Assembly (NCBI GenBank): GCA_018434325.1
Contig: JAHDPO010000036.1
Span: 1-64,000, forward strand
Source of the DNA: Clostridia bacterium
GTDB lineage: Bacteria; Bacillota; Peptococcia; DRI-13; UBA5745
Length of the DNA stretch: 64,000 nt
Direction of reading: 5' to 3'
Part shown: piece by piece, positions 9,250-45,117 of the stretch
Numbering within the stretch: position 1 is the first letter of the stretch
Layout of the letters: every line of letters begins with the position of its first letter
The notes under the pieces: generated by a model
The model's database searches: none
The model's input: the letters and a program-made list of their open reading frames with translations, nothing else
What the model was told of the DNA's origin: nothing
Translations under genes and position numbers: made by a program

Positions 9250-9290
9250 TCACAATGGCTAGACCACCATATGTAAAATGAAGCAGGCAA

Positions 9291-9324
9291 AAGAGGCGTT
9301 GTCCCCCGAAGGATGACGCCTCTT
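9291..9324 (+). terminator. Intrinsic terminator of surface-protein gene
   Basis: 14-bp stem: AAGAGGCGTTGTCC (9291-9304) pairs with GGATGACGCCTCTT (9311-9324), loop CCCGAA. It lies 42 bp after the stop. The downstream tract is only moderately T-rich. Confidence 0.7.
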
Positions 9325-9421
9325 GCCGCCTCTTACCGCCTTTTGCCTCGAAAAAGATGAAAAAGCTGCCGGGCCATGATACACTATAAATATTAATCTC
9401 CTATTCAGAAAGGCTAATGTC

Positions 9422-10183
9422 ATGAATCCTCGTCTGCAAACATTCTGGCAGGTCTTCTTCTATATGGCCGGCTTAGCCTGCCTGATTTATTTCTTGATCA
9501 TAAGCCTGGTGCTGAATTTCTCATACGACTTTAATTATATCTGGCTGGCCGCCGCCGTCTTAGCTTTCGCTGTTGGAAAGTGGCTGCCTTTATGGAACCG
9601 GCTTCCCTCCGTCTTAAGGCGGCTGATTCTTATCCTGGCAGGTCTGGGGCTGGCCCTCTTTATTTTTGTGGAAGGCCTGATTCTTTCCACCGCCTTGTCG
9701 CAGCCGGCGGCAGACGCCGATTATCTGATCATTCTGGGAGCCAAGGTCAACGGCACCTATCCTTCTCTGACCCTCCAATACAGAATCGATGCGGCCGCCC
9801 TGTACCTCCGCGATAATCCCGGCACCCTGGCCATAGCCAGCGGCGGCCAGGGCCCCGATGAAGGGATCTCAGAGGGGCTGGCTATCTATCATTCTTTAGT
9901 GGCCCGGGGGATCAGCGAGGGCAGGATCATTATTGAAGACAAATCCTCAAGCACTTGGGAGAACCTGACCAACTCCCGGGCCTGGATCGAAAATCCCCAA
10001 TCCGCTGTGGTGGTGGTATCTTCAGACTTCCATCTTTACCGGGCTTTGGCCCTGGCCGGAAAAGCCGGTTATGAAAACGTCACGGGACTGGCAGCCAAAA
10101 CCATGCCTGTCCTGGTTCCTTTATATTATTTGCGGGAATTCCTCGCTCTGATAAAGAGTTATCTCACCATATTGCGATGTTAA
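9422..10183 (+). CDS. YdcF/SanA-type membrane protein (DUF218)
   Basis: 253 residues. Three hydrophobic segments (about 10-35, 42-60, 68-90) precede a DUF218 domain. The domain carries the family signatures YLIILGAKV, ASGGQGPDEGISEG, DKSSSTWENLTNS and VVSSDFHLYRA. Members of this family (SanA, ElyC, YdcF) act in the envelope and are linked to peptidoglycan or carrier-lipid metabolism. The biochemical reaction is not established. Start ATG at 9422 has AGAAAGG upstream. No cotranscribed partner is obvious; cheV follows after 120 bp. Confidence 0.88.
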   Translation: MNPRLQTFWQVFFYMAGLACLIYFLIISLVLNFSYDFNYIWLAAAVLAFAVGKWLPLWNRLPSVLRRLILILAGLGLALFIFVEGLILSTALSQPAADADYLIILGAKVNGTYPSLTLQYRIDAAALYLRDNPGTLAIASGGQGPDEGISEGLAIYHSLVARGISEGRIIIEDKSSSTWENLTNSRAWIENPQSAVVVVSSDFHLYRALALAGKAGYENVTGLAAKTMPVLVPLYYLREFLALIKSYLTILRC

Positions 10184-29431: not shown

Positions 29432-29797
29432 TTAATCTTCCGTCCCCGTTTTCTTCAAGGCTTTGATGAAAGCGGCCACAGCTTGCAACTCGTTGACATT
29501 CATCCGTTTGACCTTCCGAATGGTTTCGCTCTGCAAATCCCGCAAGGCTACTTGGCCTTTACCGGGGCTTTGGCCCGTCAAAACCCATTGGGCCGAATAG
29601 CCGTAAGTGTTCTCAATCAGCCTGGCCAAAGGCTCGGAAATAGCTTTTTTTCTGCCGCTGGTCAGAAGATAGACATAATTGGCGCTGATGCCAAGAGTTT
29701 TGGCAAACTCCACTTGTTTTATCTGTTGCTCTCGGATAATCCAGCGCATTCTCAATGCCATGGCGGCCAGGTTGGCCGGTTCGCTAATTTCCCGCAT
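29432..29797 (-). CDS. XRE-family helix-turn-helix regulator
   Basis: 121 residues. HTH_3 domain about 12-70 (LRMRWIIREQQIKQVEFAKT, LGISANYVYLLTSGRKKAIS). The C-terminal tail ETIRKVKRMNVNELQAVAAF is a short helical extension similar to the small protein at 33087. Its start overlaps the LuxR-type gene stop by 14 bp, so it is the third gene of that operon. Probably binds DNA as a dimer; targets unknown. Confidence 0.88.
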   Translation of the reverse strand: MREISEPANLAAMALRMRWIIREQQIKQVEFAKTLGISANYVYLLTSGRKKAISEPLARLIENTYGYSAQWVLTGQSPGKGQVALRDLQSETIRKVKRMNVNELQAVAAFIKALKKTGTED

Positions 29798-31415
29798 AAG
29801 TGCATTTCCCCTCCCCCATCATCTGAATGTACACCATCAGCTCTTTGCGGGAGGTAACATTCAGCTTCATATAAATACGCCGGTTGTGAGTTTTAATGGT
29901 ATTAATGGAAAGGCAGAGTATGCCCGCAATTTCCTGGGCCGTATAGCCTTGCACATACAGGTCAAAAACTGCTTTTTCCGCAGCTGAAAGCGTCTTGATA
30001 TTTTTCTCAAACTCCAGGTATAGGGCCGAAGGGACCGATGCCTGGAGTTCTTTTTTTTCGGCCCCGGCAAGCAGTTCATCCTGAGCCGCTAAAAACTCGA
30101 TTAGATCATCAATTTCAGGAATCTTCGTTTTGACGGCAGGGCCGGGGTTTTTAAGCTTTTCTAAAGCTTCCGTCACCGGACGAATATATTTGCGGCTGAT
30201 CAAAGCCGCCATGCCGATATTAACCAGCATCAAAGCCAAAAGCCCTAAAATCAAATTGTGGTTTTTAAGGGAGATCAAGTCATTAAGGCCTTTTTCCGGC
30301 ATCAGAAGCACTGCCAGCCATCGTTCTTGCCCATAGGCGGAGTTTGAGGGGTAAAGGGATACCTCCCGATGCAGGCCGGCATAGCTTTCCTTCTCTGTTT
30401 GGCGATAGACGTGAAAGCCGCCCTCATGAGGCAATATCTTTATCTCGGTATGCCGGGGCGCCGCCGGCCCCGCCGCAAAGCCTCCCGCAAACAGACCCCT
30501 GGAAAGCAGTAGCCTGTCATTTTCAAGAGGCGCAAACAGACAAAGCAGATGATCGTATCCCTCGCCTTGGGGCGTATAAGAGAGCTTAAACAGCATTTCG
30601 CTGATCTCAAAACCGCAGAGGCCGAAAACGGTACCGTCTGAGGCAATGAGTGGAGCCATACAAAGCATTACCCGCTCGCTGCTGCCCGGCAGGGCTTTGG
30701 CGTCGCTCCAGCGATAAAGCCGGGAAACCGGCAGGCTGCGTTCTTCGGCCATTGCCATGACATCGGTAAAACAAGTCATCGCACCGATATCCATCTCCAT
30801 TTGCCATTGAGGCAGCAAAGTGATTTTGTTGTTGCGGGCAATGGCCATGGGACCAAACAGGTAGCGCAGGTTGGCCGCCATGCCGTTGACTATATTAGGC
30901 TCCATATTTTTAAGATACAGGCAGGAACGAGAATTGGCAGCCTCAGGCAGCGCAGGATTTACCGTTGCATCCAGCAGCAGAAATACGCCGCTGCCTGCCG
31001 ATCTCTCCAAAGCGCCGGTAAGCCGGCCCATTTCTTCAGCCAAAAGATGCTCCAGCAAGGCGGGGTTTTCTTGCAGCTGCCGGGCGGAAAAGCCCTGTTC
31101 CTGAAGGTTCCGCTCAATATTGGCTGTCAGGGCTTTGGCCAAATCCACCGTCTGTATGGAAATAGCCCCGAAAGCTTTATAAATATTTTGGGCAATATGA
31201 TCAAGCTCCCGGTCTAAAACCGCCCTATGCTCTGTCCGGCCGGCCTGAAAAACGCCGGTGGAAAAGAGGATCAGCAAAACGCCCAGCATAATGGTATTAA
31301 GAAAAAGCAGCAGAAAGACAAACAGCCTAAGCCGCAGGGGCAGACCGTCCCGCCCGCAGCGCCTCAAGGCCTCCCGGTAAAGGCTGAAGGTTGCCGCCAA
31401 CCCTCCCTTTGGCAT
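29784..31415 (-). CDS. Membrane-bound LuxR-type sensor-regulator
   Basis: 543 residues from ATG 31415 (GGGGAGGGACTTA upstream). TM1 (about 27-50), a ~310-residue extracytoplasmic sensor, TM2 (about 370-392; LGLLALMLVNIGMAALISR), a HAMP-like linker, then a LuxR/GerE HTH at the C-terminus (LSAAEKAVFDLYVQGYTAQE, ICLSINTIKTHNRRIYMKL). The transcription factor is thus anchored in the membrane with no kinase step. It lies 16 bp after a solute-binding lipoprotein gene and overlaps an XRE gene, which suggests the lipoprotein delivers the ligand. Confidence 0.88.
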   Translation of the reverse strand: MPKGGLAATFSLYREALRRCGRDGLPLRLRLFVFLLLFLNTIMLGVLLILFSTGVFQAGRTEHRAVLDRELDHIAQNIYKAFGAISIQTVDLAKALTANIERNLQEQGFSARQLQENPALLEHLLAEEMGRLTGALERSAGSGVFLLLDATVNPALPEAANSRSCLYLKNMEPNIVNGMAANLRYLFGPMAIARNNKITLLPQWQMEMDIGAMTCFTDVMAMAEERSLPVSRLYRWSDAKALPGSSERVMLCMAPLIASDGTVFGLCGFEISEMLFKLSYTPQGEGYDHLLCLFAPLENDRLLLSRGLFAGGFAAGPAAPRHTEIKILPHEGGFHVYRQTEKESYAGLHREVSLYPSNSAYGQERWLAVLLMPEKGLNDLISLKNHNLILGLLALMLVNIGMAALISRKYIRPVTEALEKLKNPGPAVKTKIPEIDDLIEFLAAQDELLAGAEKKELQASVPSALYLEFEKNIKTLSAAEKAVFDLYVQGYTAQEIAGILCLSINTIKTHNRRIYMKLNVTSRKELMVYIQMMGEGKCTYAGN

Positions 31416-31431: not shown

Positions 31432-32820
31432 CTATGACTGCCCCGCGATAAATTCAGCAAAGGCGCCCTTTACCGCTTCCTGATAAGCAGCCTCCGGCTC
31501 CATGGTCTTTAGGTTTTCCAGATATACTTGTCGTTTTGCCGCCGCCATATTGAGAAAGGTTTTCTCCCATTTGCCGCTGATCGCATTGAAGCCGTCGAAT
31601 ACCGGCGGGACATAAAAGCTGTACCCCTGATGGAGGGCCATCGCCGTACGCAGCAAGCTGCGGATATTGGGATTGCTGTTTTCGGCAATCTCCCGCTCCA
31701 TATGATTGACAAAGGCCTGACCGGTAACGGGCAGATAGCCGGTGGAGGCTACAAAGTTCATGTTTTTCTCAGGAGCGGTAAACCATTTTAGGAATATAGC
31801 GGCGGCCTGCTCTTTTTCGGCGGTGGATTTAGCCACGGCAAACCCGCCGCCCCGCTGAATGGCAACTTTATTGCCGCCCTCAAAAACAGGGTAAGGCAGG
31901 ATGGAATAGTCCACCTGTTCCTTGGTATTGTCGGGATAGGTGATGGTCTCCCCATAAAAAAGTATGCCTGCCGTGGAGCCGGTAGAGCAGAGAATATCCC
32001 CGGTTTTGGAAAGATCAGAGGAATAGCCGTCGTAAACGGCATACCCCCCCTGCACTGCCGGCGCAAAAATCACCTGCCAAACCCGCTCCAGCTCCGGCCT
32101 CTGAAGCTGGAGAGCTTCCCCTTCAAACAAGGGAGCTCCCAACTGCTCCATACCGACCTGAAACAGATTGAAAATCGAGTCCGCCTTATAAAAGGCTTTG
32201 CCGTCATTAGGCGTCTCCGGCGTCTGTTCGTCTGTCCAGCGGTAATACTCCCGGGCCGCCCGGGCAACGCCCTCAAAGGTGGCCAGGCTGTCTGCCGTAA
32301 CGCCGGTAGCTGCCGAAAAGCGATCAAACAAGGTCTGATTAAGGAAAAGTACTTCCGTGGATTTGGCAAAAGGGAATACATAAAGCTGTCCATCGTTCAA
32401 CCGGCCTTCCGATACAAAGGCGGGCAGATACTCTTTGAGCTCTTCCTCAGTGAAATATCCGTCCAGTGGGGCCAAAAGACCTTTATCAGCAAGGGGAGCG
32501 GCAGTGGCCGGATAACAGGTGGTAATATCGGGCATGGCCGGCGCGCCGGGATCCCCGGCAGCAATCATCGCCAGCTTTTCCTGCAGGGAAGCGGAGCCGG
32601 AAATTGAAGTGACGCTGATCATGACGCCCTTCTCTTTGCCTACCGTGGCATTAAACTCTTCGATCAGGCCATCCATGGTGGCTTGCATCTGACCGCCAAA
32701 ATTATGCCAGAGATTAAGGGTAACAGGGTTTTGGGGATTGAGCCCGCTTTTTTGGCCGCAAGCGGATAGAAAAACCATTAATAGCAGCAATACCACCCAG
32801 ACTATAGGATTCTTTTTCAT
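31432..32820 (-). CDS. ABC-type extracellular solute-binding lipoprotein, family 1
   Basis: 462 residues from ATG 32820 (GGGAGGCG upstream). A lipoprotein signal (IVWVVLLLLMVFLSAC) is followed by a family-1 sugar-type binding fold (VTLNLWHNFGGQMQATMDGL, FPFAKSTEVLFLNQTLFDRF, AIQRGGGFAVAKSTAEKEQA). No permease or ATPase genes accompany it. It heads an operon with a membrane LuxR regulator and an XRE protein. I infer a sensing rather than transport role. Confidence 0.9.
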   Translation of the reverse strand: MKKNPIVWVVLLLLMVFLSACGQKSGLNPQNPVTLNLWHNFGGQMQATMDGLIEEFNATVGKEKGVMISVTSISGSASLQEKLAMIAAGDPGAPAMPDITTCYPATAAPLADKGLLAPLDGYFTEEELKEYLPAFVSEGRLNDGQLYVFPFAKSTEVLFLNQTLFDRFSAATGVTADSLATFEGVARAAREYYRWTDEQTPETPNDGKAFYKADSIFNLFQVGMEQLGAPLFEGEALQLQRPELERVWQVIFAPAVQGGYAVYDGYSSDLSKTGDILCSTGSTAGILFYGETITYPDNTKEQVDYSILPYPVFEGGNKVAIQRGGGFAVAKSTAEKEQAAAIFLKWFTAPEKNMNFVASTGYLPVTGQAFVNHMEREIAENSNPNIRSLLRTAMALHQGYSFYVPPVFDGFNAISGKWEKTFLNMAAAKRQVYLENLKTMEPEAAYQEAVKGAFAEFIAGQS

Positions 32821-32903
32821 CAGAACGCCTCCCTGTCTTCTGCCCACGGATCTACTAATAAAATAAAAAAATCACCCCAAAATCACCCCTGTTTTCCCTG
32901 AGG

Positions 32904-32949
32904 AATCACACCGGGGATGATTACAGCCAAAGGAAAGCCCCCTATAATG
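32904..32949 (+). promoter_or_regulatory. Promoter with 19-bp palindrome, copy 1
   Basis: AATCACACCGGGGATGATT (32904-32922), then -35 TTACAG (32921-32926), 17-bp spacer, -10 TATAAT (32944-32949). It drives the small-protein/zinc-ribbon pair at 33087. Two more half-sites (AATCACCCC) lie just upstream at 32870 and 32881. Copies at 34993 (+) and 34889 (-) have the same geometry. Confidence 0.75.
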
Positions 32950-33086: not shown

Positions 33087-33257
33087 ATGAAAAAAGAGCA
33101 GCCGGAGGCTTTGCGCAAAGAAATTATACAGGCTGTCGGCAGTCTGGATTTTTTTAGTCTGCAAAAGCTGGGAGCTTTTATTGCCGGCCTGGAGATGGCA
33201 AGAGCTGAGGGAAAGGAAAGCTCGGAAAAAAAGGAGGAAGCAAATCATGACGGATAG
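33087..33257 (+). CDS. 56-residue helical protein
   Basis: Small gene with a clear ribosome site (GGAAGGAG, 9 bp before ATG 33087). The product starts MKKEQPEALRKEIIQAVGSL and ends with a charged Glu/Lys tail. Its central stretch (IIQAVGSLDFFSLQKLGAFI) resembles the C-terminal helical tail of the XRE regulator at 29432-29797. Its stop overlaps the zinc-ribbon gene start by 11 bp, giving translational coupling. It could be a binding partner or modulator. No named family recognised. Confidence 0.7.
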   Translation: MKKEQPEALRKEIIQAVGSLDFFSLQKLGAFIAGLEMARAEGKESSEKKEEANHDG

Positions 33258-33615
33258 ACAGCTTCCTTTATTCACGGCGAAATATCAAGAGCTGCAAAAG
33301 GAAAGCGGCTTTTGCTTCACCTTTTTCTGCGATCTCTGCAATAGCAGTTATACCACGCCTGTTATTGCCGCCGAAGATCTCCAAACAGCCCTGGTTTTAG
33401 GCCGGCAAGACGGGCGGCTGCATTTCAATCGCTGCCGCTGCTGCCATCGCTGGGTTTGTGATGAGCACTATAACGAGAACCGGATGATGTGCACCGATTG
33501 CCTGCCCCGGGTCTGCAGCAGCTGCGGCGCCTTTGTGCCGAAGGGCAACCAGTTTTGCACGGTTTGCGGCAATCCTCAATTTGATCAGGGCAAAATAAGG
33601 CGGGAGAAAGAATAA
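33247..33615 (+). CDS. Double zinc-ribbon cytosolic protein
   Basis: 122 residues from ATG 33247, 8 bp behind AAGGAGG. No signal peptide or TM. Cysteine pairs occur at CDLC, CRCC, CTDC, CSSC and CTVC, enough for two or three zinc knuckles; the middle portion CHRWVCDEHYNENRMMCTDC may be a treble-clef or B-box-like unit, and the C-terminal CGAFVPKGNQFCTVCGNP is a classical zinc ribbon. Second gene behind palindrome promoter 1. Function unknown; might be a protein-interaction adaptor. Confidence 0.85.
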   Translation: MTDRQLPLFTAKYQELQKESGFCFTFFCDLCNSSYTTPVIAAEDLQTALVLGRQDGRLHFNRCRCCHRWVCDEHYNENRMMCTDCLPRVCSSCGAFVPKGNQFCTVCGNPQFDQGKIRREKE

Positions 33616-33812: not shown

Positions 33813-34199
33813 TTATGAATTCGACACTGGGCTGCCACATTCCGGACAGAATTTTTTACCCTGAGGAATGGCTGTACCGCAATTTGCGCAGGTTAAATTA
33901 GCCGGGGCAGCGGCAACGGGCTGCTGAGACACTCCCTTGATTTGCTGTATCTCCAGCTCCAGGCCTTCGATGGCGGCCATAGCCTCGTTAATATTGCCGC
34001 ATAAAGCCATGACTTGGTCATCCAAAGAAATCCCGGCTTGAAATTGCTCCCAGTAGTAATCACCAATTTTCATCTTCAGGGCGGCAATTTTGCCTTTTTC
34101 CTCATTGATTTTAGAATTGCGCTTGGTAATCTCCAGCATATCGCCGGCCTTATCCGCCATACCCTTTGTCACGCTGCCTATTTTATCAAATATCGCCAT
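33813..34199 (-). CDS. Coiled-coil zinc-ribbon protein
   Basis: 128 residues from ATG 34199 (AAAGGTGTGAAG upstream). The first ~90 residues form amphipathic helices (KIGSVTKGMADKAGDMLEIT, EEKGKIAALKMKIGDYYW). The C-terminus is a zinc ribbon (CANCGTAIPQGKKFCPECG). Soluble. It overlaps by a few bases in position with the upstream membrane zinc-ribbon gene stop (34214, 14-bp gap) and is second in that operon. Similar helix-plus-ribbon proteins are common in Clostridia but uncharacterised. Confidence 0.85.
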   Translation of the reverse strand: MAIFDKIGSVTKGMADKAGDMLEITKRNSKINEEKGKIAALKMKIGDYYWEQFQAGISLDDQVMALCGNINEAMAAIEGLELEIQQIKGVSQQPVAAAPANLTCANCGTAIPQGKKFCPECGSPVSNS

Positions 34200-34213
34200 A
34201 TTCTTCACACCTT

Positions 34214-34813
34214 TCAACCTATATTAAAATCAAAATTTGTAGTTATGGTATCGCCGCCAAAAATGAAACACAGTATCACGATCAAAAGGATCAGCGCCCA
34301 CACAATGATTTGAGCCCGGGCAAAATTTCTGCGGTTCAGGCTGGCATTTTGACCAAAAGCCCATAAAAAGGCCAGCACAAGGCCGACAATCGGTATGGAA
34401 AACGCCAGCATAGTAAGCAGGTAGCCAATAACGCTCATGGGGCGCGGGTTGGCTGCCTTGCCATAGGGGGCAGGGGCAGGCGCAGCTGCCATAGGCGCCG
34501 CGGCTGCCGGCCCGGCGGCCATTGCCAAAGCTGGCCCTGCAGTGGCTGCGGCCGCAAAAGTTTCTTGCCGGGCTTTGGGTGGTGCCACAGCTGCCGCCGA
34601 TACCGAAGCTTCTGTAGATGCCCGGGCCGGCGCTGCTGTCATAGGCGCGCCGGCTTCCGCGGGGGCTGCAGATACTGCCGCCGTGGATTCCGCAGATTCC
34701 TCAAAAAATTGGCCTGGTTCCTGCACGGCCGCTGCGGCAGCGCCGCAGTCGGCGCAGAAATTAGCGCCGGGGGGCAGCGGAGATCCACAGGCGCTGCAAA
34801 TCACATCCGACAT
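34214..34813 (-). CDS. Zinc-ribbon membrane protein
   Basis: 199 residues from ATG 34813, 7 bp behind AAGGAGG. N-terminal zinc ribbon (CSACGSPLPPGANFCADCG), then ~100 residues rich in Ala/Pro (disordered linker), then two TM helices (VIGYLLTMLAFSIPIVGLVL; AQIIVWALILLIVILCFIF). The topology places the ribbon in the cytosol. First gene behind palindrome promoter 3 on the minus strand. Role unknown; likely an envelope stress or scaffold component related to the neighbouring AIM24/VWA genes. Confidence 0.85.
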   Translation of the reverse strand: MSDVICSACGSPLPPGANFCADCGAAAAAVQEPGQFFEESAESTAAVSAAPAEAGAPMTAAPARASTEASVSAAAVAPPKARQETFAAAATAGPALAMAAGPAAAAPMAAAPAPAPYGKAANPRPMSVIGYLLTMLAFSIPIVGLVLAFLWAFGQNASLNRRNFARAQIIVWALILLIVILCFIFGGDTITTNFDFNIG

Positions 34814-34861: not shown

Positions 34862-34907
34862 ACTATAGGCCATATCCGTTGCTGAAGAAATCACCTCAGG
34901 TATGATT
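34862..34907 (-). promoter_or_regulatory. Promoter with 19-bp palindrome, copy 3 (minus strand)
   Basis: On the minus strand AATCATACCTGAGGTGATT (34889-34907), a poor -35 beginning TTTCTT, 17-bp spacer, -10 TATAGT (34862-34867). It points to the zinc-ribbon membrane gene. Same spacing as the two plus-strand copies, which makes the shared geometry meaningful. Confidence 0.65.
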
Positions 34908-34992: not shown

Positions 34993-35038
34993 AATCACCC
35001 CAGGGATGATTACAGCCTTCAGGAGAATACCGTATAGT
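34993..35038 (+). promoter_or_regulatory. Promoter with 19-bp palindrome, copy 2
   Basis: AATCACCCCAGGGATGATT (34993-35011), -35 TTACAG (35010-35015), 17-bp spacer, -10 TATAGT (35033-35038), 31 bp before the AIM24 start codon. The 25 bases from AATCAC to CAGCC match copy 1 at 23 positions. Confidence 0.75.
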
Positions 35039-35069: not shown

Positions 35070-35981
35070 ATGGCATTTTGTAATAATTGCGGCAACCCTT
35101 TTGAGACGGGAACGAAATTCTGCCCATCCTGCGGCGCCCCGATCCAGGCCGGCGGTCCGGCTCAACCCCGATCTATGCAGAGGGCTCATGAGGTGGAGTT
35201 CAAAATTCACGGCGAAGACCTGCAATTTGTGGAGATTATGCTGGACCCCGGAGAAACCATCATTGCCGAGGCAGGAGCCATGATGTACATGGACAGCGCT
35301 ATCCAGATGGATACCGTTTTCGGCGACGGCTCCGGCCGGGACGCCGGCAGCGGCCTGATGGGCAAGCTGGTTTCGGCAGGCAAACGGGCCGTTACCGGCG
35401 AAAGCCTCTTCATGACTTCCTTTACCAACACAGGACGGGAAAAAAGATGCGTCTCTTTTGCCGCCCCCTACCCCGGCTGCGTTATTCCCTTCGATTTAAC
35501 CGATGTGGGCGGGACTCTGATTTGCCAAAAAGACGCCTTTTTATGTGCGGCAAAAGGCATAGCCGTAGGCATTGCTTTCCAGAAAAAAATCGGCGTGGGT
35601 CTGTTCGGCGGCGAGGGCTTTATTATGCAGAAGCTGGAGGGTGACGGTTTAGCATTTATGCATGCCGGCGGCACCATCATCAAAAAAGAGCTGAGGGACG
35701 GCGAAACCCTGAAGCTGGATACCGGCTGCCTTGTGGCCTTGACCACCGGCGTTAACTACGACATTCAATTTGCCGGCGACATCAAGACCGCCCTGTTTGG
35801 CGGCGAGGGCCTGGTTTTGGCCACCTTGACCGGCCCCGGCACCGTTTGGCTGCAATCCCTGCCTTTTTCCCGCATGGCTGACCGAATCGTTTCCTCCAGC
35901 AGAAAAGGCGGTAAAGGAAAAGAAGAAGGCAGCGTCCTGGGCAATATCGCTATCGGTAATCTTTTCAGCAACGACCGCTGA
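35070..35981 (+). CDS. Zinc-ribbon AIM24/TIGR00266 family protein
   Basis: 303 residues. N-terminal zinc ribbon ([19 protein letters not shown]), short linker, then the AIM24 beta-prism domain (about 40-270). The domain has [43 protein letters not shown] and [23 protein letters not shown]24-family proteins are trimeric-type folds of unclear function, linked in mitochondria to cristae structure. The C-terminal tail is Gly/Lys-rich. Its ribosome site is AAGGAGGG. It is first gene in a probable operon with a lipoprotein (58-bp gap) and a giant VWA lipoprotein. Confidence 0.92.
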
Positions 35982-36039
35982 GAGCCGGATCTTTATTTAA
36001 AAAGGCCGCAAAGGCTTTAAATGATGGGAGGGAATAGTC

Positions 36040-36948
36040 ATGAAACGAACATTTGTTTTTTGCCTGCTTATTCTGCTGCTTCTTAGCCTGGCGGCAGGCT
36101 GCGGCTCCGGCGGCAATAAACCGGCCGGCAGCCCGTCAACCAGCGGTGAAAAAACAGAAAGCACGGCGCCCCAGGCATCCCCAAGCCAGCCGGCGGACAG
36201 CGAAAATACCGGCGGCGGCAACAGCAGTGACGGCAGCAGTGGCGGCAATGAATCCTCGGAAACCGCCTCTTCCTTGCAGGCCTATGTCGATGAATGGATC
36301 AGAATCAACGACCTCCACGAGAAATCCATTAACGACTACGAAGGTGTTGTCATTGAGCTGCCTTTAGCGACCCTGCCTCTATCCTTTGCGCCAATTTATG
36401 AAATATTGAATATAGACAATAAAGAGGGCCGCCATGAAGGCACCCTGCTTCTGTCCGGCTACCCTGCCTTTTTGGAGCAAAAGGGCGATAGCTTCCACTT
36501 TGGCTATGACGCCATCCGGGATGAGGATGGTTTTGCCCCCGGCATGAAGGCCGGCGACAGGTTGCTGCAAGAGGGCAGATTGGATGGAGCAAAGGGCTAC
36601 CTCGAAATAGCCAGCCGGACAGAGCAAGGCGGCAAGATCACGGAAAAGGTAAAAGGCGCCTATCTTCTCACCCCACAAAGCACCTGTTCTGCAATCTATC
36701 AGGAAGCCCGCGGCATTGATATTAAAGGCAATGAAAATAAAAAAAACACCGCCGTTTTTCTGGCCATGAGTGAAAAGGACTACAGCTTCGTAATAGCCAG
36801 AGGCCAGTCCGGCACAGCTTTTACAGAGGTAGAGCTTAAAGAAGGTCTGACGGTTGAGAAAGCCAAAGAGCTGTTCATCGAGGCCGGCTATACTATCGAA
36901 AGCAGCGGCGGTATCGCCGATGGTAAATTTACCATAATCAGAGAATAA
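36040..36948 (+). CDS. Lipoprotein of unknown family
   Basis: 302 residues. The lipoprotein signal ends LAAGC at Cys21. A ~50-residue Ser/Gly/Asn/Pro linker leads to a ~220-residue globular domain (VDEWIRINDLHEKSINDYEG, FHFGYDAIRDEDGFAPGMKA, DYSFVIARGQSGTAFTEVEL). I recognise no family. It would sit outside the membrane between AIM24 and the VWA lipoprotein genes, 58 and 54 bp apart; I infer that the three act together. Confidence 0.8.
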   Translation: MKRTFVFCLLILLLLSLAAGCGSGGNKPAGSPSTSGEKTESTAPQASPSQPADSENTGGGNSSDGSSGGNESSETASSLQAYVDEWIRINDLHEKSINDYEGVVIELPLATLPLSFAPIYEILNIDNKEGRHEGTLLLSGYPAFLEQKGDSFHFGYDAIRDEDGFAPGMKAGDRLLQEGRLDGAKGYLEIASRTEQGGKITEKVKGAYLLTPQSTCSAIYQEARGIDIKGNENKKNTAVFLAMSEKDYSFVIARGQSGTAFTEVELKEGLTVEKAKELFIEAGYTIESSGGIADGKFTIIRE

Positions 36949-37002
36949 GGAATAAGACCGCCAAAGGTTTAGCTGCAAGAGTTGCAAAAGGAGGGCAAGC
37001 CT

Positions 37003-40000
37003 ATGAAAAGGCTGACAGCCATAATTTTATTGTTCGCGCTTATGTTTAATCTCGCCAGCTGTGGCAAAGGAGAAACGGATGCGGCGGGCCGGCCGGAAGA
37101 CCGGCAGCTGCAAGAGGACAACGCCGCAGCGCAGCTAGCCTCCCTGGCGGTTGCCGGCGGCAAAAGCCCGCCGGAAATCACCGGAGTTGTTCACGGCCCT
37201 GCCGACGGCATTGGCGTGGCCGGCGTCGATTACCAGGAGCTGCCCACGGGGCCTGCCGACGATTGGGGAGATCTGGCTATTCCCTATTTTAATCCCTTGG
37301 GCTCTTTCAAGCTTTACTATGGCGCTCGCCAAGCTGATCATGCCACCCCGGGTTTTGCCACCCGGGATGGCTACACTCTGGGCGATCTGGCCCTGCTCAG
37401 CCTGGAGCAGCAGTGGATTTTGGATATCGACCATGAGGATTTCACTTTCAACTGGCTGCGGGCCTATGCCAAAGGGTTGGGAGCAGTAGAGCATCCGGCG
37501 CCGGCGGACAGCGCCGTCTTTGAAATTCTGGAAAATCCCCAAACCTGCTGGTGGGCCGTGGCCACCAAATCCTCCGGCGGCTGCCGGCTGGATATTTACC
37601 GTCTGAATATGGCTCCTGCGGGCCAGACCATTACCATCAAGACCTCGGAGCTTGCGGAAAATACCTTTCATCTTTATACCGACTGTGTGCCGGGCAAGCT
37701 GCAATCCGCCACCGTAACCATTAAAGGCAAGACTAACAGCGAGGTCAAGATCGACTCATATCAAAGAAGAAGCTACGGCCAATACCAGCGTTACGTAGGC
37801 CTGCCCGACGGCTATGAAGCCCATCATGGCAGGTTCAACAACAAGCGTACCGACACTTATGTGATCGATAATATCCCGGTTTGTGAAGGCAAGCTGGTTT
37901 GGACCTTTGAATGGCCGCCCGAAGATAATGCCTTCAACTGGACCAATCTGATGAAACCGGAGGAAATCACCTTCCGCATCGATAATGTGGCCGACATTCC
38001 CCAGGTAAAATGGGGTGAGGCTTTGGGCGCTATCAGGATTAAAGGCCTGCCGGCGGGAATAGCCGATGTAATCCCCCAACCGGGAGTAGATCCCCGGCAC
38101 GATGAGGTCACAGGCTCTTCGAATTCCTATGGGGCCAGCTCCCTGGACGCCGAAGGCAATCAGATCTTCACCCTGCCGGCGGGATACTACAACCTGCGCT
38201 TTGCCAGACAGGGCTACGCCATCAATCTGGCCTCCCAGATCCAGCTGGTGCCTGTCAGCGCCGGCGAGGTCACTACGGTGACGGTGCCGCCGGAATTGCG
38301 CAGTACCATCGAAGAGCTGGGCAAGCGTTACGGCACTTTTGAAAGGGCCGCCGGCGGCATCGAGATCCAGTCCAACAAAGATAACGGCAATACGGCCACC
38401 GTCTCCATCGTTGTCAACGACCCCCAGGAGCGGGACGTTTTTCCGGAGAACGAGGACATTAAGATTACGGAAAATGGTCTGCCGGCCAAGGTGACAAAAA
38501 TCCAGCGGGAGCCGGCGGCGGCCAATGTGGTGCTGGTGCTGGACTCCTCCGGTTCCATGGGGGCCAACATGAAGCCCGCCGTGGAAGCGGCTAAAAAGTT
38601 CGTAGCCAGCCTGCCGGACAATGCCGGCATCCGGCTGGTTCAATTTGCCCAAAAGATCACTCAGCATAAAGCTCAGGGTAAAGCAGAGGTCATTGCTGCC
38701 TTGGATACCGTCAAGGAGGGCGGCGGCACCGCTCTTTATGACGCCACCAACACCGCCCTGGAAATGCTCAAGGAGCTGGACAAAGCTTATGTGGTCATCT
38801 TCTCCGACGGGGCGGATTCCCGGGAGCTTACCAATGCAGGCAAAGGCAGCGACCTCAACAAAGCTGGCATTCTGGAAAAAATTAAAGCCAGCCAGGCTAC
38901 GGTGTTAAGCATCGGCTTCGGCGCCGGCCACGACCCCCGCATATTGGTGGAAATGAGCGAGGCCAGCTTAAACGGCGCATATTTCGCCGCCATCCAGCCG
39001 GAAGCTTTAGACAGCGCTTTTGCCGCCGTTTCCGGCCGCTTCGGCAATCAGTTTACCATTACTTACGACCGCCCTACCGCCCTTAAGGATAAAAGCGGCG
39101 ATGTGCCGGTGATCTCTTTTATGATCGACCGCTCCGGTTCCATGGACATGGATCCCTCGGAATCGGAAAACGATGTGGACTACCGCATCGACAAAATCAA
39201 GAAGCTCTTTCATGATTATGTGCTGGCCCTGCCGGCAGGCACCCTGATGCAGCTTGGCTCCTTTCGGCTGCCTCCCGGCGGCGCGCCTGAAGAAATCAAC
39301 TATAATCAGATCACCACCGACAGCAAGGCCCAAATACTCAGTGGCCTGGGCAGTTTTTTTGCCGATGGCGGCACACCGATTCTGGAAGCCCTGACGGTAG
39401 CCTATTACAATCTGCTGCCGGTGCCTTCCAGCAAACGCACCCTGGTCTACTTCACCGATGCGGCCCTGGCCGTGGATGAGCTGGAAAAGGTGCAGCTGGA
39501 AAAGATCCTTACCCAATACAAGGAAGCCGGTATTCGCATACTGTTTGCGGGATTGGGCAACGAAAAGTTTGCCGAAGCCTACCAAAGCGGCTTTCAGACG
39601 GCAGCCCGGCTTTCCGGCGGCGAATACGTATTGTCGGATAAGCTGGAGGATATTCAAAAGGCCCTTGATTCTCTGATGCAAAAATTGGACCTGCCTGCTG
39701 CCGCCGAAACCGGCATCAGCTTCTCCATCGAAATGGACGCCCGCACGGAGGACGGCAGCCGCATGAACTACTCGGCCGCCAAGGCCCTGCCCGACTTCTC
39801 CCAGCGGGAAGCGGCAGGAAAAACCGTCAATCCAGAGATCGCCAGAATCAGCGGCGGCGAGCCTTACATTCGCTACGACAGCGCCGGCTCCCGGCTGCTT
39901 TACGGCATAGATAAGCCGGGCAGCGACAGCATTATTCAAACCCGGCTCTCCTTCACCGATACCGAAGGCGTCGAAATCCAAAAAGGAGCGGCCGGCAAGA

Positions 40001-43000
40001 ACAGCCTCATCAGCCTGGCTGTCCGGGAAGCTTATTTTATGCCCCTCTTTAAAGGTCTGGCGGCGGACAAAATTTATAGCCAATTTCTTGCCCTCAATGT
40101 GGATATCGAATTCCCCAAAGCTGCCGGCGGTGCGGAAGAATACCTGATCCCCGATATTTTCAGCCATTTCTACGCGGGGATCAACGGCACTTTATCGCCG
40201 GCCAGCCAAGCTACCTGGCTGGCGGAAAAGCCCTTGGCAGAACCCGGCAACCCCGGTATCCATTTAAAGAAAGGCGATAAAAAAAGCGGCGTTCTCATCT
40301 TTTTGGTGCCTCGCCAGTCTACGGAGCCGGCAACTCAGCTTTCCCTGCATTTCTATGACGTCACTAACGGTCACATCCAGATCCCGATTATCGGCGTTCT
40401 CAATGAAAAGCTGTTGGAGCTGGATCAGCTGCCCGCCGCTGCCCCCGCTAATATTTCCGAAACCTTCAGTCTGACTCTCAAGGGTAAAACGGAAACAGCG
40501 GAGCTGGCCGGCGTCAGCATTTATCAAACCACCGATCCCGTCAATATTCCAAAAAACACTACCTTCCGGGTGCTGGAGGCTCAATTTGCCAGCAAGGTTC
40601 AAGCCCATCTCAACATCCTGCCTCAGGAACGCTTCCTCTACGCTATCGAAACGGATCAGGGCCCTTTGGCTGTCAAGATGAGCGACGCCGTCTACAATAT
40701 ACCCTTGGGCTTCAGCAATGGCCCCCTGCTGGCCCCGGCTGCCGCCGCCAATGTGCGCCTGCCCTTTCAGATGCCTATTGCCTTGAAAGAAAGCAAATCC
40801 TATCTCTTTGCCGACCTCCGGGGCGATTCCCTGCAAATTCCCGTTACGGGGGGCAGCCCTTATCAAACGGCCAGTCTGGGCAAAAGCTTCAGTCATCCCT
40901 ACTTTGATCTGACGGTTCACGCCTTGCGCAAGCTGGCCAACAACAGCAATAAAATTGTGCTGGACTTCACCCTGCGGGATAAGCCCGACGGCGTGGGCCT
41001 CAGCGGCGTCCAATCCCTCTTTATGCTCTCGAAAGAGGAAACGGCAGCAGCCGACGGCCAGCACAAGCTTTCCGCTGCCGCCGCCGGTAAAGCCGGCGCC
41101 GCTATTGCCGCAGGCCGCAAGGGCTTGGGCAGCTTCGGCGACAGCGATAACGTCAAAAGCGTCGTCAGCCTCAGCAGCGCTACGGATAAGCTGCTTTTCG
41201 GCGCCGACGCCGATTGGGCGGTGCTGGATAACAACAGCCGCCGGGGCATCATGGTCTTTGATCTGCCCCACGGTGAGGATGCCGCCCAATGGAACCTTTG
41301 TTCCGGCTTTCTGGAAGAACTGTTACTGCCGGTGGAAGCGGATGTATACGGCTATCTGCCCTTGCTGGCCGAAAAACAAGAAGTGCCCCGCCAGTTGGAT
41401 TTTCAGCGGGCTTTGGAGGAAAAAGTCAGCGCCGCCGTAGCCGCCTACCAGGCCGGCCGCTCCCAGGCCAAGAATTACACCACCTTAGGCCTCAGCAGCC
41501 AGGACACCGTCAACCGTTCCGGCCTGGTTCCCGCCCTCACTTTATATGGCAGCCGCATCCTGGAGAGCGTCAACAGCTATGAAGACTTTTTGCAAGTAAT
41601 GTACGGCCTGAACATGCTGCCGGGGCCCTACCATTCCTACTGGTATGCTCCCGAGGCGGTGCTCACCCAAGGCTGGGGCACCGAGCTGGATCTGGCCAAC
41701 CTGGCCTGCCATATGCTTGCCTGTCTGGGCTTCCAGCCTCAGGTCAGATCGGTAGAGCTGACGGAGGTCGGCCAGGAAAACGCCGGCCGGATTATGGGCC
41801 TGGATTATGACTCAAACTACACCGCCGGCATCCTTTACACCGACGAAAAAGGGGCCCAACAGGTATTCGTTGTCCCCTTCATGCGCAATCTCACGGAATT
41901 GCCCGGCCTGGCCTATCTGGGCCCCAGAAACGAGTACAGCAGCAGCACAAGCCCCGCCCGAGGCACCCTTACCATCACCGCCCGGGCTGAACTGATCAAA
42001 CCCCTGGCAGACGCCAATTCCGCTCAAGTAGCGGCCTTCAATTCCCTCAACTCCATGTTTGCCGAAGAAGGCCAGGCTGACGAAAAACCGGCCGTTGAGG
42101 ATATCCTGCTGTTCCACCGGGAGCTGTCCATGCCGGACCTCAGCCGTGACGTCATAGACATCAGCTACGTTGCCGCCGGCAAGAGCAAGGACGGCCAAGG
42201 CGACATCCTCATTGCCGCCCTCGATTCGGGCCAGGGTCTGCTTTACGACGAAAAACGCTTTATCGACACCTCGTTTTATCAGATCCAGTCCGTGACCATA
42301 GAAGCCGACCGGACCAGCCATACCACTTATTTGGAGCCGGGCCAGAAGCTTAGCGACGTCGTTCACACTTTCGCCTTCGGGACGCCGGAGATGACTGCTG
42401 AGGCAGCGGCTGCTCTGACGGCGGCGGTGGCCGGCAAGCTGGAAGAGGCTAAAGCCGCCGGTGATTACGGTACTGTTCGCTGGGTGGGTCATAGTGCCGC
42501 CGGCCGCTTCATCCGGGGTCTGACGGCTTTTGAAGCGGAACAGGAGCCGCGTTTTGGCCTGGTAGCTGCCCGCACCGATCGCCCCATAGCCTTCATGGTC
42601 ACCATGAAATCCGACGGTGAAAAGGCAACGGCCACCACGGATCTTATGCGCGTCCAAAACCGGCTGCTGACACGGCCCGACAGAGAACAAATGGACGGCT
42701 TCTCCATTGCTTGCGGCATCTATGCCAGCATTCTGGAAGGGGAAGCCTTAGGCAGCGGCAAAGCCGTAGGTTTTATGGAGGTTTGGAGCGCCCTGCCCCA
42801 GGATGCTCAAATTTATCTGGTTCCTAAAGAAAAAATGCTCTCTACCGCCGAAGCCCTGGAAAAAGCCGGCGGACCTCCTAAGCTCATCGAGCATCTAAAG
42901 AAGGAGTTTGAAAGCTCTCCCTCCCGAAAAATGTTTTTCCTGCCTTCACAGCCCGCCCTCATCGACGGCAAAGAGCGCTGGGCCTGGCTGGAGGTCAGTG

Positions 43001-43566
43001 AGGATTCCGACGGTACCCGGGCTATTTCCGTCAGCGAGACGGGGGAACGCTCTGCCATGGCCCAATACGTCCTGCTCAACGCAGCTTCTGTCGGCATGAA
43101 GCCTCTGAGCGCCGAAGGCATCGCCGGCTTTCTCTACGGCATCACCTGCTCCAACTGGGGCATCGCCGCTTATTCCTTGGAATTGGATGATCCCGTACTG
43201 ATCCGGGCCCGGGCCTATGCCCTGATGGACGCCATTGCCGAAAAGTTGGAGACCATTGAATCCGTCAAGGATATTCCCGCCGATATGGCCAGCAAAGGTA
43301 AAAAGATCGAAGAATTCATTGTGGAAAACGCCGATAAAGAGCTGACGGAGATCGTAATAGAACAATTGAAAGAAGAAGCCAAGGCCCAAGTGGAAGACGT
43401 GGCCAAAAGCGCCCTCAAGTTTGCCGATGTACCCCTTATGCCCTTTATGGAGGATGCCGTAAAAGGCAAAGATATCGAAGGCTCGGATGGCGATGTGGCC
43501 GGCTACAGCTTCTCCGAAGGCTTCCGGGCGGCGGTAGACGCCATGTTCCCGGAAATGTCGAAGTAG
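37003..43566 (+). CDS. Giant VWA-domain lipoprotein with two complete MIDAS sites
   Basis: 2187 residues from ATG 37003 (AAAAGGAGGG 8 bp upstream). Lipobox NLASC. After a ~480-residue beta-rich N-terminal part with a carboxypeptidase-regulatory-like segment, two VWA domains follow. VWA1 has DSSGS at 514, the Thr in GGGTALYDAT and FSDGAD. VWA2 has DRSGS at 709, ADGGTPI and FTDAA, so both can bind Mg/Mn. Near 1557-1600, GTELDLANLACHMLACLGF resembles a transglutaminase/NlpC-like helix lacking the active Cys. The C-terminus is predicted helical. Probably an extracellular, metal-dependent adhesive or scaffold. Terminator at 43616. Confidence 0.88.
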   Translation: MKRLTAIILLFALMFNLASCGKGETDAAGRPEDRQLQEDNAAAQLASLAVAGGKSPPEITGVVHGPADGIGVAGVDYQELPTGPADDWGDLAIPYFNPLGSFKLYYGARQADHATPGFATRDGYTLGDLALLSLEQQWILDIDHEDFTFNWLRAYAKGLGAVEHPAPADSAVFEILENPQTCWWAVATKSSGGCRLDIYRLNMAPAGQTITIKTSELAENTFHLYTDCVPGKLQSATVTIKGKTNSEVKIDSYQRRSYGQYQRYVGLPDGYEAHHGRFNNKRTDTYVIDNIPVCEGKLVWTFEWPPEDNAFNWTNLMKPEEITFRIDNVADIPQVKWGEALGAIRIKGLPAGIADVIPQPGVDPRHDEVTGSSNSYGASSLDAEGNQIFTLPAGYYNLRFARQGYAINLASQIQLVPVSAGEVTTVTVPPELRSTIEELGKRYGTFERAAGGIEIQSNKDNGNTATVSIVVNDPQERDVFPENEDIKITENGLPAKVTKIQREPAAANVVLVLDSSGSMGANMKPAVEAAKKFVASLPDNAGIRLVQFAQKITQHKAQGKAEVIAALDTVKEGGGTALYDATNTALEMLKELDKAYVVIFSDGADSRELTNAGKGSDLNKAGILEKIKASQATVLSIGFGAGHDPRILVEMSEASLNGAYFAAIQPEALDSAFAAVSGRFGNQFTITYDRPTALKDKSGDVPVISFMIDRSGSMDMDPSESENDVDYRIDKIKKLFHDYVLALPAGTLMQLGSFRLPPGGAPEEINYNQITTDSKAQILSGLGSFFADGGTPILEALTVAYYNLLPVPSSKRTLVYFTDAALAVDELEKVQLEKILTQYKEAGIRILFAGLGNEKFAEAYQSGFQTAARLSGGEYVLSDKLEDIQKALDSLMQKLDLPAAAETGISFSIEMDARTEDGSRMNYSAAKALPDFSQREAAGKTVNPEIARISGGEPYIRYDSAGSRLLYGIDKPGSDSIIQTRLSFTDTEGVEIQKGAAGKNSLISLAVREAYFMPLFKGLAADKIYSQFLALNVDIEFPKAAGGAEEYLIPDIFSHFYAGINGTLSPASQATWLAEKPLAEPGNPGIHLKKGDKKSGVLIFLVPRQSTEPATQLSLHFYDVTNGHIQIPIIGVLNEKLLELDQLPAAAPANISETFSLTLKGKTETAELAGVSIYQTTDPVNIPKNTTFRVLEAQFASKVQAHLNILPQERFLYAIETDQGPLAVKMSDAVYNIPLGFSNGPLLAPAAAANVRLPFQMPIALKESKSYLFADLRGDSLQIPVTGGSPYQTASLGKSFSHPYFDLTVHALRKLANNSNKIVLDFTLRDKPDGVGLSGVQSLFMLSKEETAAADGQHKLSAAAAGKAGAAIAAGRKGLGSFGDSDNVKSVVSLSSATDKLLFGADADWAVLDNNSRRGIMVFDLPHGEDAAQWNLCSGFLEELLLPVEADVYGYLPLLAEKQEVPRQLDFQRALEEKVSAAVAAYQAGRSQAKNYTTLGLSSQDTVNRSGLVPALTLYGSRILESVNSYEDFLQVMYGLNMLPGPYHSYWYAPEAVLTQGWGTELDLANLACHMLACLGFQPQVRSVELTEVGQENAGRIMGLDYDSNYTAGILYTDEKGAQQVFVVPFMRNLTELPGLAYLGPRNEYSSSTSPARGTLTITARAELIKPLADANSAQVAAFNSLNSMFAEEGQADEKPAVEDILLFHRELSMPDLSRDVIDISYVAAGKSKDGQGDILIAALDSGQGLLYDEKRFIDTSFYQIQSVTIEADRTSHTTYLEPGQKLSDVVHTFAFGTPEMTAEAAAALTAAVAGKLEEAKAAGDYGTVRWVGHSAAGRFIRGLTAFEAEQEPRFGLVAARTDRPIAFMVTMKSDGEKATATTDLMRVQNRLLTRPDREQMDGFSIACGIYASILEGEALGSGKAVGFMEVWSALPQDAQIYLVPKEKMLSTAEALEKAGGPPKLIEHLKKEFESSPSRKMFFLPSQPALIDGKERWAWLEVSEDSDGTRAISVSETGERSAMAQYVLLNAASVGMKPLSAEGIAGFLYGITCSNWGIAAYSLELDDPVLIRARAYALMDAIAEKLETIESVKDIPADMASKGKKIEEFIVENADKELTEIVIEQLKEEAKAQVEDVAKSALKFADVPLMPFMEDAVKGKDIEGSDGDVAGYSFSEGFRAAVDAMFPEMSK

Positions 43567-43615: not shown

Positions 43616-43654
43616 GGGGAGCGGCAGGTTTTAGCCTGCTGCTCCCCGTTTGTG
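43616..43654 (+). terminator. Terminator of AIM24/VWA operon
   Basis: GGGGAGCGGCAGG (43616-43628) pairs with CCTGCTGCTCCCC (43635-43647) with one mismatch, followed by GTTTGTG. Confidence 0.8.
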
Positions 43655-43757: not shown

Positions 43758-44777
43758 TTACCGCCGGCTTCTGAGGGTGCGATAAAGAGCATAACAGCAT
43801 TCCCCTATAGTGACGATGATGATAAAGGCGGAAATAAGCAGAATAATGGTGCGGCCGCCGCCGGCCCCCAGAAATCGCAGCAAATTGGGATTCTCAAGGC
43901 CCCGGATAAAAGCAAGGAATTCATCGCTGAGCAAACCGGGCCTGTTGAGCAAATAGACTACGATAATCGTGCTGATTAAGCTGCTGGCCACGGTTGTGCC
44001 GCAGACAAGAGGCGTCCAGCGGCCATATCTGATTTTGACAAGACAATCAAAAACGCTTAAGGAAATCACAACGACCATAGCGGGAAGGCAGCTTGCTAAA
44101 AATCCGGGACTAAACAAGCTGTACAGCCGGGTTTCGCCCCTGATGATCACAAAAGAAAAAGGCAGTACGCCGGAGCACAACAGTATCATAATTATCCCAA
44201 AAACAACCGTCACTACCAGCTCGGCGATGCTGTCGGATAAGGGTATTCTCCCTTTATCGTCAGCAGGGGTCTCCGGCAGGTCTTCGATTTTCCACTCCTT
44301 GCTTTTATCGGGCTTAGCCCCTGTCCGTTCCGCAATCACAAAGCCTACAGTAACCCACATCAGAGCCTGAAAAACCGCTGAAATCCCTAAAGCCAGGCCC
44401 TTGGCCAGGATCTTAGCGATTACCTGGGACAAATTCACCAGATCATATCCCAGATTATCAATAGCTCCCGCAATCGTGCCAGCTGCCAGAACTGCCAGAC
44501 CCACCAGAGGCAAGACCAGCTTTAATGTGCGCAGGTATTCATCATAAATGGCGGGCGATATCAGGTATTGAGGATTTTGGCGGTATTTTTCGGCCAGAGC
44601 AGCCGGCGAACCCAATTGCTGCAAAACTCCCCGGATTTCCCCTTCGTCTGCGGCGTCGGCATTGTCGGCCAGCATATCGTAGATATTAGCGTTCAGCTCC
44701 CGGCTTACTTCCTCCCGCTCCTTTTCCGGCAACCGGCGGGTTACATCATAAATATAGCGTTCAATCAAATTGCCCAT
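43758..44777 (-). CDS. HAAS-domain membrane protein, PadR partner
   Basis: 339 residues from ATG 44777 (AAAGGGTGAAGAGG upstream). The N-terminal HAAS-type helical domain (LIERYIYDVTRRLPEKEREE, LQQLGSPAALAEKYR) is the module usually encoded next to PadR-family regulators. About six TM helices follow. The start codon lies inside the end of the padR gene (17-bp overlap). PadR/HAAS pairs are thought to form a sensor: the membrane protein may sequester the repressor or sense envelope stress. Confidence 0.85.
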   Translation of the reverse strand: MGNLIERYIYDVTRRLPEKEREEVSRELNANIYDMLADNADAADEGEIRGVLQQLGSPAALAEKYRQNPQYLISPAIYDEYLRTLKLVLPLVGLAVLAAGTIAGAIDNLGYDLVNLSQVIAKILAKGLALGISAVFQALMWVTVGFVIAERTGAKPDKSKEWKIEDLPETPADDKGRIPLSDSIAELVVTVVFGIIMILLCSGVLPFSFVIIRGETRLYSLFSPGFLASCLPAMVVVISLSVFDCLVKIRYGRWTPLVCGTTVASSLISTIIVVYLLNRPGLLSDEFLAFIRGLENPNLLRFLGAGGGRTIILLISAFIIIVTIGECCYALYRTLRSRR

Positions 44778-45117
44778 CCTCTTCACCCTTTCCGCAAATA
44801 GAATCAATGCTTCTTTGCATCTTTCGCCACTCCGCCAGCAATTCCGTATATACCAGTCTGCCCTTTTCGCTTATGGAATAATATTTTCTGGGCCTGCTCT
44901 CGCTGGTATCCCATTGGCTCAGGAGCAGCCCCTGGCTTTCCAGCCGGCGCAAAAGGGGATACAGCGTATTGGCCTCAATATCGATAAATTTTTCCTGCAT
45001 AGCTTGCAGCAGCCCGTAGCCGTAATGGGCTTCCTGCAGACAGCCGAGAACGGCTAAAGTTAAACTCCCCCGGCGCAGCTCCGTAAGGAAGCTTTGAAAT
45101 TGATCATTATCCGGCAT
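44761..45117 (-). CDS. PadR-family transcriptional repressor
   Basis: 118 residues. Winged-helix PadR domain: RRGSLTLAVLGCLQEAHYGY, LQAMQEKFIDIEANTLYPLL, RRLESQGLLLSQWDTSESRP and RKYYSISEKGRLVYTELLAE. GAGGGGTGATGGT precedes the ATG. A 21-bp palindrome just upstream is a likely self-operator. Overlaps the HAAS gene by 17 bp. Confidence 0.93.
   Translation of the reverse strand: MPDNDQFQSFLTELRRGSLTLAVLGCLQEAHYGYGLLQAMQEKFIDIEANTLYPLLRRLESQGLLLSQWDTSESRPRKYYSISEKGRLVYTELLAEWRKMQRSIDSICGKGEEDGQFD

Follow-up and report, generated by a model that had tools for sequence, protein, structure and literature searches.

AIM24/TIGR00266 proteins (PF01987) have no known role in prokaryotes. AIM24 is also known from a conserved neighbourhood of a putative stress response: one group of Ter neighbourhoods includes it (Anantharaman et al. 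2012, as cited in PMC5822837). MIDAS-bearing VWA folds occur in extracellular proteins such as the inter-alpha-inhibitor heavy chain, the minor pilin PilB, the pilus tip protein Mfa5 and LapA. Regulators of the CadC/ToxR type combine an extracytoplasmic sensor, a transmembrane (TM) anchor and a DNA-binding domain in one chain. Substrate-binding surface proteins can contain VWA and Ig-like modules.

We analyzed a 64,000-nt stretch of a Clostridia bacterium genome (contig JAHDPO010000036.1, positions 1 to 64,000; hereafter the window). An initial annotation had noted genes for AIM24, a lipoprotein and a giant VWA lipoprotein in tandem and knew of no described system of such composition. We likewise found none in the open-access literature searched, which held no description of AIM24 with a VWA protein or zinc ribbon, of a solute-binding protein (SBP) with a membrane LuxR regulator, or of the giant VWA family. 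Each part is of a known kind; the regulon as a whole and the giant family are previously undescribed. AIM24 matched its family models strongly over its full length, but here it carries an N-terminal zinc ribbon and shares an operator-led operon with a giant lipoprotein. Unlike Ter neighbourhoods, the locus pairs AIM24 with a giant exported VWA lipoprotein and has no TerD. TerD (PF02342) had no match anywhere in this genome, while the same search was positive in B. subtilis and D. chartae, and a Ter system was rejected on this basis. Relative to known VWA surface proteins, the giant protein is distinguished by carrying two VWA domains in tandem, along with DUF4352-like and transglutaminase-like domains, on a lipid-anchored chain of 2187 residues. 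The regulator resembles CadC/ToxR-like one-component proteins in joining sensor, anchor and DNA-binding domain in a single chain, but its HTH is of the GerE/LuxR type and the adjacent gene encodes a solute-binding lipoprotein dedicated to it. The unexplained gene trio thus becomes a regulon that can be tested, with its candidate regulator, partner sensor and operator named. AIM24 becomes approachable via what switches it on, and a new family of giant MIDAS-bearing proteins emerges across Bacillota, Riflebacteria and Verrucomicrobia.

Results

All three ORFs of the trio were verified on the + strand: AIM24 (35070-35981), a lipoprotein without a named family (36040-36948) and the giant VWA lipoprotein (37003-43566). 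The gaps measured from ORF coordinates (58 bp between AIM24 and the lipoprotein, 54 bp between the lipoprotein and the VWA gene) agree with the 50-60 bp given initially, and the palindromic promoter proposed ahead of the trio is present (palindrome at 34993-35013, followed by TATAGT). The single terminator proposed at its end fared less well. A 14-bp hairpin does follow the VWA gene (43616-43647, +), next to GTTTGTGCTA, but as it lacks a clear T-run, termination there is only possible. No RNA family or riboswitch reached gathering score in the promoter or 3' region of the trio, and the 3' hairpin region had only chance-level matches to RNA families. We read the trio as one transcription unit of a larger, dispersed regulon. 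The regulon is well supported, and the explanation as a whole is held with moderate confidence. The exact order AIM24-lipoprotein-VWA was seen only in this genome, whereas the regulon itself is conserved. Two other settings were rejected: a plasmid-borne element, as tblastn gave no plasmid match, and a defence system, as no PADLOC defence model matched AIM24, the lipoprotein, the VWA protein or the SBP and the LuxR protein was matched solely via its HTH.

The giant protein starts best at ATG 37003 and is 2187 aa long, with a lipobox (LASC) after a hydrophobic stretch; its Cys20 was invariant across the four Bacillota sequences of one alignment. Pfam detected VWA_2 at 60.6 bits. The two VWA domains span residues of about 508-690 and 703-910, and the initial claim of two intact MIDAS sites was confirmed, with complete sets in VWA1 (DSSGS 514-518, T576, D602) and VWA2 (DRSGS 709-713, T791, D819). 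Relatives aligned across the VWA region keep the DxSxS, T and D residues in either domain. The chain was modelled as two AlphaFold models with mean pLDDT of 73 and 71. The N-half contained two VWA folds (Foldseek E down to 6e-12) and best matched the inter-alpha-inhibitor heavy chain, ArnAB and VWA pilins; as the long alignments came at high rmsd, the overall arrangement is not matched.

In the model of the C-half, residues of about 995-1132 formed a beta sandwich like that of DUF4352-like or telokin-like lipoproteins (B. subtilis YcdA 4r4g, 4eae, 4les, MPT63), with Z 10.5, rmsd 3.1 and 121 aligned residues for YcdA; here, the sandwich is one module of a giant chain. The C-half gave nothing significant in sequence searches against Pfam and the PDB. 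In its model, a transglutaminase-like region (about 1511-1651; model residues about 552-692) aligned with LapG-type cysteine proteases (4fgo; Z 5.4, rmsd 3.6, 124 aligned), although Z below 8 may reflect a common arrangement only, and with BDI_1141 (3kd4; Z 4.9). The aligned fold differs from these in having no conserved Cys. The helix-start motif was QGWGT in most relatives, and no Cys stood at the helix start in any relative aligned there. The domain is probably not a protease.

Conservation across a 12-row alignment extended far past the VWA domains to a C-terminal G[FY]..G....YF motif, which sets the giant double-VWA lipoproteins apart as a family of their own, previously undescribed. The family is rare, occurring in 6 of 398 sampled genomes of the phylum. 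Contig C6 of the same genome encodes a paralogue (44% identity). Full-length relatives, 35-36% identical, were found in genome G038 (the contig being that of Clostridiaceae bacterium BRH_c20a) and in the Clostridia MAG G036. More distant relatives came from Riflebacteria, Paenibacillus agaridevorans, Verrucomicrobia and further genomes of the phylum. Among Verrucomicrobia, one MAG held a tandem pair (locus L045, 3749-15274) and an Opitutia MAG a single copy. The VWA gene lies within an operator-led unit in the present genome (twice), G036, G038 and G365. No operator was found near the VWA gene of Paenibacillus, and no regulator homologue was found in the fetched loci of Paenibacillus, Riflebacteria or Verrucomicrobia; the VWA protein therefore does not need the regulon. 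A 1902-aa protein in an operator-led unit of G384 was rejected as a VWA homologue, as it is an SLH/InlB-repeat protein. In that unit (locus L136, G384:C41, 1074-7970), the operator precedes a DUF4870-like gene, a small lipoprotein and this surface protein, which stands in the place of the VWA gene.

AIM24 scored 244.4 bits against PF01987 (cut-off 25.7) and 104.2 against TIGR00266 (cut-off 96.6), and its N-terminal CxxC...CxxC ribbon was barely above the Zn_Ribbon_1 cut-off. Homologues with 68-69% identity occur in the clusters of G036 and G029, in the latter with the VWA gene missing. The AIM24 gene of G038 lies elsewhere in the genome, outside the cluster, and the same AIM24 subtype stands alone in G384 and G003. 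The second gene of the trio encodes a signal peptide and lipobox (LAAGC) and had no family match in Pfam/TIGR-type profile searches; its homologues are cluster-linked in G038, G036, G029 and G365. In G036 (G036:C13, 18885-19737; locus L035 from 12832 onwards), this lipoprotein is split in two by an in-frame TGA. Co-occurrence of the trio, suggested at the outset as a check, held in part: linkage of VWA and lipoprotein genes is kept in G036 and G038, with AIM24 alongside only in G036. Since the lipoprotein accompanies the giant protein in three genomes and AIM24 does so in only two, and AIM24 is missing from several genomes with the regulator or VWA protein, we rejected AIM24 as an obligatory partner.

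Three zinc-ribbon genes lie just upstream. The first (33247-33615, +) belongs to a family, ZnA, whose homologues in loci L033-L036 and L135 are every one inside an operator-led unit. Between it and its operator, a short ORF (33088-33252; about 54 aa) has a good ribosome-binding site and may be an extra regulon gene. The divergent pair comprises a protein with an N-terminal zinc ribbon and, by hydropathy, two TM segments (34214-34813, -; first gene of its unit) and a helical protein with a C-terminal zinc ribbon (33813-34199, -; Zn_Ribbon_1, 31 bits). In G036 and G038, a homologue of the latter directly precedes the VWA gene, and in two relatives homologues of the zinc-ribbon genes share an operon with VWA. 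Together with the full operator-promoter ahead of 33247 and the degenerate copy ahead of the divergent pair, this supports the initial proposal that the zinc-ribbon proteins are of the same regulon.

The operator (AATCAYCC-N3-RGRTGATTAC) spans 21 bp and is followed at 18-19 nt by a -10 box. The copy serving the trio, AATCACCCCAGGGATGATTAC (34993-35013, +), had no mismatch to the consensus and TATAGT 19 nt downstream. A second, AATCACACCGGGGATGATTAC (32904-32924, +), lies ahead of 33247, with TATAAT at 18 nt and two tandem half-sites upstream (about 32870-32890). A degenerate operator with two mismatches, AATCATACCTGAGGTGATTTC (34887-34907, -), has TATAGT 19 nt downstream toward the divergent zinc-ribbon genes (33813-34813). 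Between this promoter and the divergent one of the trio is a perfect 22-nt inverted repeat (34922-34943/34956-34977), with half-sites AATCACCCTTAGAATCATCC. The two + strand promoters share a 25-nt motif, AATCAC(A/C)CC..GGGATGATTACAGCC, in which they are 92% alike; it occurred twice in the window, where chance would give 0.01 matches.

Across its own genome, the operator occurred at four promoter positions with 0-1 mismatch (the two in the window, and one each ahead of the paralogous VWA operon and an operon of DUF4870-like and small lipoprotein genes), and a fifth match lay within a coding region. The reversed pattern, used as a control, had no match in 20 genomes. Half-sites upstream of the operator (e.g. 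AATCACCCC-AAAATCACCCC) were present at many sites across families. Of 51 oriented sites, among which most palindromes enter in both orientations, 23 had a -10 match in 5 or more of 6 positions at 17-20 nt, versus a background of 2.4%. Many of the one-mismatch matches in regulator-free genomes are probably due to chance. As the palindrome overlaps the expected -35 position, it may act in activation rather than repression.

Upstream of the zinc-ribbon genes, two adjacent genes encode a solute-binding lipoprotein (31432-32820, -; SBP_bac_8, 97.7 bits) and a membrane-anchored LuxR-type regulator (29784-31415, -). Hydropathy of the latter gave two TM segments (about 35-60 and 386-408) flanking an extracytoplasmic sensor region with weak similarity to dCache_1, followed by a C-terminal GerE HTH (51.3 bits). 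LuxR homologues were 42-43% identical in three other genera and occurred in 10 families of the phylum sample; SBP homologues were 51-55% identical, and the SBP gene was upstream of the LuxR gene wherever both were seen. In most genomes the operator directly preceded the SBP gene, about 1.5 kb upstream of LuxR. A LuxR homologue was present in 20 of 398 phylum genomes (HTH-only in one of them) and an operator in 41. Operators were present in 17 of 19 genomes with LuxR versus 24 of 379 without (Fisher p = 7e-17), a value that overstates independence because the genomes are related, although ten families are involved. On these genomic grounds, the neighbouring SBP/LuxR pair is the likely regulator of the operator-led genes.

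Lineages differed in their operator targets (BTAD/TPR regulators, AraC regulators or an SLH protein), which fits a sensor module with exchangeable outputs. In family f31 (loci L125, L126, L129, L130 and L139), the operator lies between SBP-LuxR and a divergent BTAD/TPR factor gene, with a CsgG-like neighbour in some. We think it probable that SBP lipoprotein and membrane LuxR form an undescribed module with its own operator, present in at least ten Bacillota families and driving exchangeable surface or cytosolic targets that include the giant double-VWA family.

Gene order was compared among relatives. In G036, LuxR and SBP (reverse) are followed on the forward strand by ZnA, a DUF4870-like gene, a small lipoprotein, AIM24, the helical protein, VWA, a lipoprotein and the 36040-family lipoprotein. 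G029 has this arrangement minus VWA, and G038 has it minus AIM24. G365 belongs to another family of the phylum; there, the 36040-family lipoprotein and a DUF4870-like gene accompany SBP/LuxR, and a VWA gene led by an operator lies separately. Of the counterpart of 29.0-43.2 kb, the congener G004 retains only 160 bp of the SBP gene and the final 334 bp of the VWA region. Most simply, an ancestor had the cluster and the G004 lineage lost it. No regulator was detectable in G004, yet the operator was kept before its DUF4870-like gene. In the decayed cluster (locus L038), an unrelated 220-aa gene lies between the SBP remnant (8220-8379) and the remnant of the VWA C-terminus (9226-9507).

Discussion

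Our favored model, to which we give somewhat more credence than to all else, is a ligand-sensing regulon that deploys a metal-dependent surface-binding protein. The solute-binding lipoprotein would catch a small, probably carbohydrate-like ligand outside the cell and signal to its partner, the membrane-anchored LuxR regulator. The regulator would bind the operator over the -35 region, together with the upstream tandem half-sites, and turn on the zinc-ribbon, DUF4870-like, lipoprotein, AIM24 and VWA genes. The giant protein would then be exported and lipid-anchored, and its two MIDAS sites may provide metal-dependent binding at the cell surface for adhesion or tethering. The envelope-associated sensing or adhesion machine first proposed for the trio fits this model, but its sensing part would be the SBP/LuxR pair, which lies outside the 35070-43566 interval then considered, and not the VWA protein.

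Pure adhesion leaves part of the regulon unexplained, as AIM24 and two of the zinc-ribbon proteins, which lack both TM segments and signal peptides, would reside in the cytosol. These proteins could instead stabilize the membrane in an envelope-stress response, in which SBP/LuxR would sense wall damage or fragments and the giant lipoprotein would be a wall scaffold or chaperone rather than an adhesin. Several targets are indeed small membrane or cytosolic proteins (DUF4870-like, zinc-ribbon and AIM24) whose homologues remain in operator-led units without VWA (G029 and G421), and the VWA protein has no obvious binding target. However, no known envelope-stress marker was recognized among the cluster genes, the nearest solved relatives of the SBP are, at weak similarity, sugar and glycerol-3-phosphate binding proteins, and a giant extracellular protein with two MIDAS sites would be costly as a stress factor. 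We regard this account as possible but rather unlikely.

Nutrient capture, with the SBP as an uptake component and the VWA protein binding a polymeric substrate at the surface for degradation, is improbable. It draws on the membership of the SBP in SBP_bac_8 and on the general precedent of VWA and Ig-like modules in surface proteins that bind substrates. Yet no ABC permease, ATPase or hydrolase was recognized beside the SBP gene in the listed loci, and its partner there is the LuxR gene, which together favor a signaling role. That the trio is three unrelated tandem genes, as its gene order, not found elsewhere, and the solitary AIM24 genes might suggest, is very improbable given the shared operator, the linkage conserved across families of the class and the VWA and SBP remnants left in G004 after loss of the cluster.

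The window holds another large surface protein at 4840-9249 (+), of 1469 aa, with Big_1, BatD-like and Cu_amine_oxidN1 domains. Convergent with the VWA gene, a HAAS-domain membrane protein and a PadR regulator (43758-45117, -) are kept in G004.
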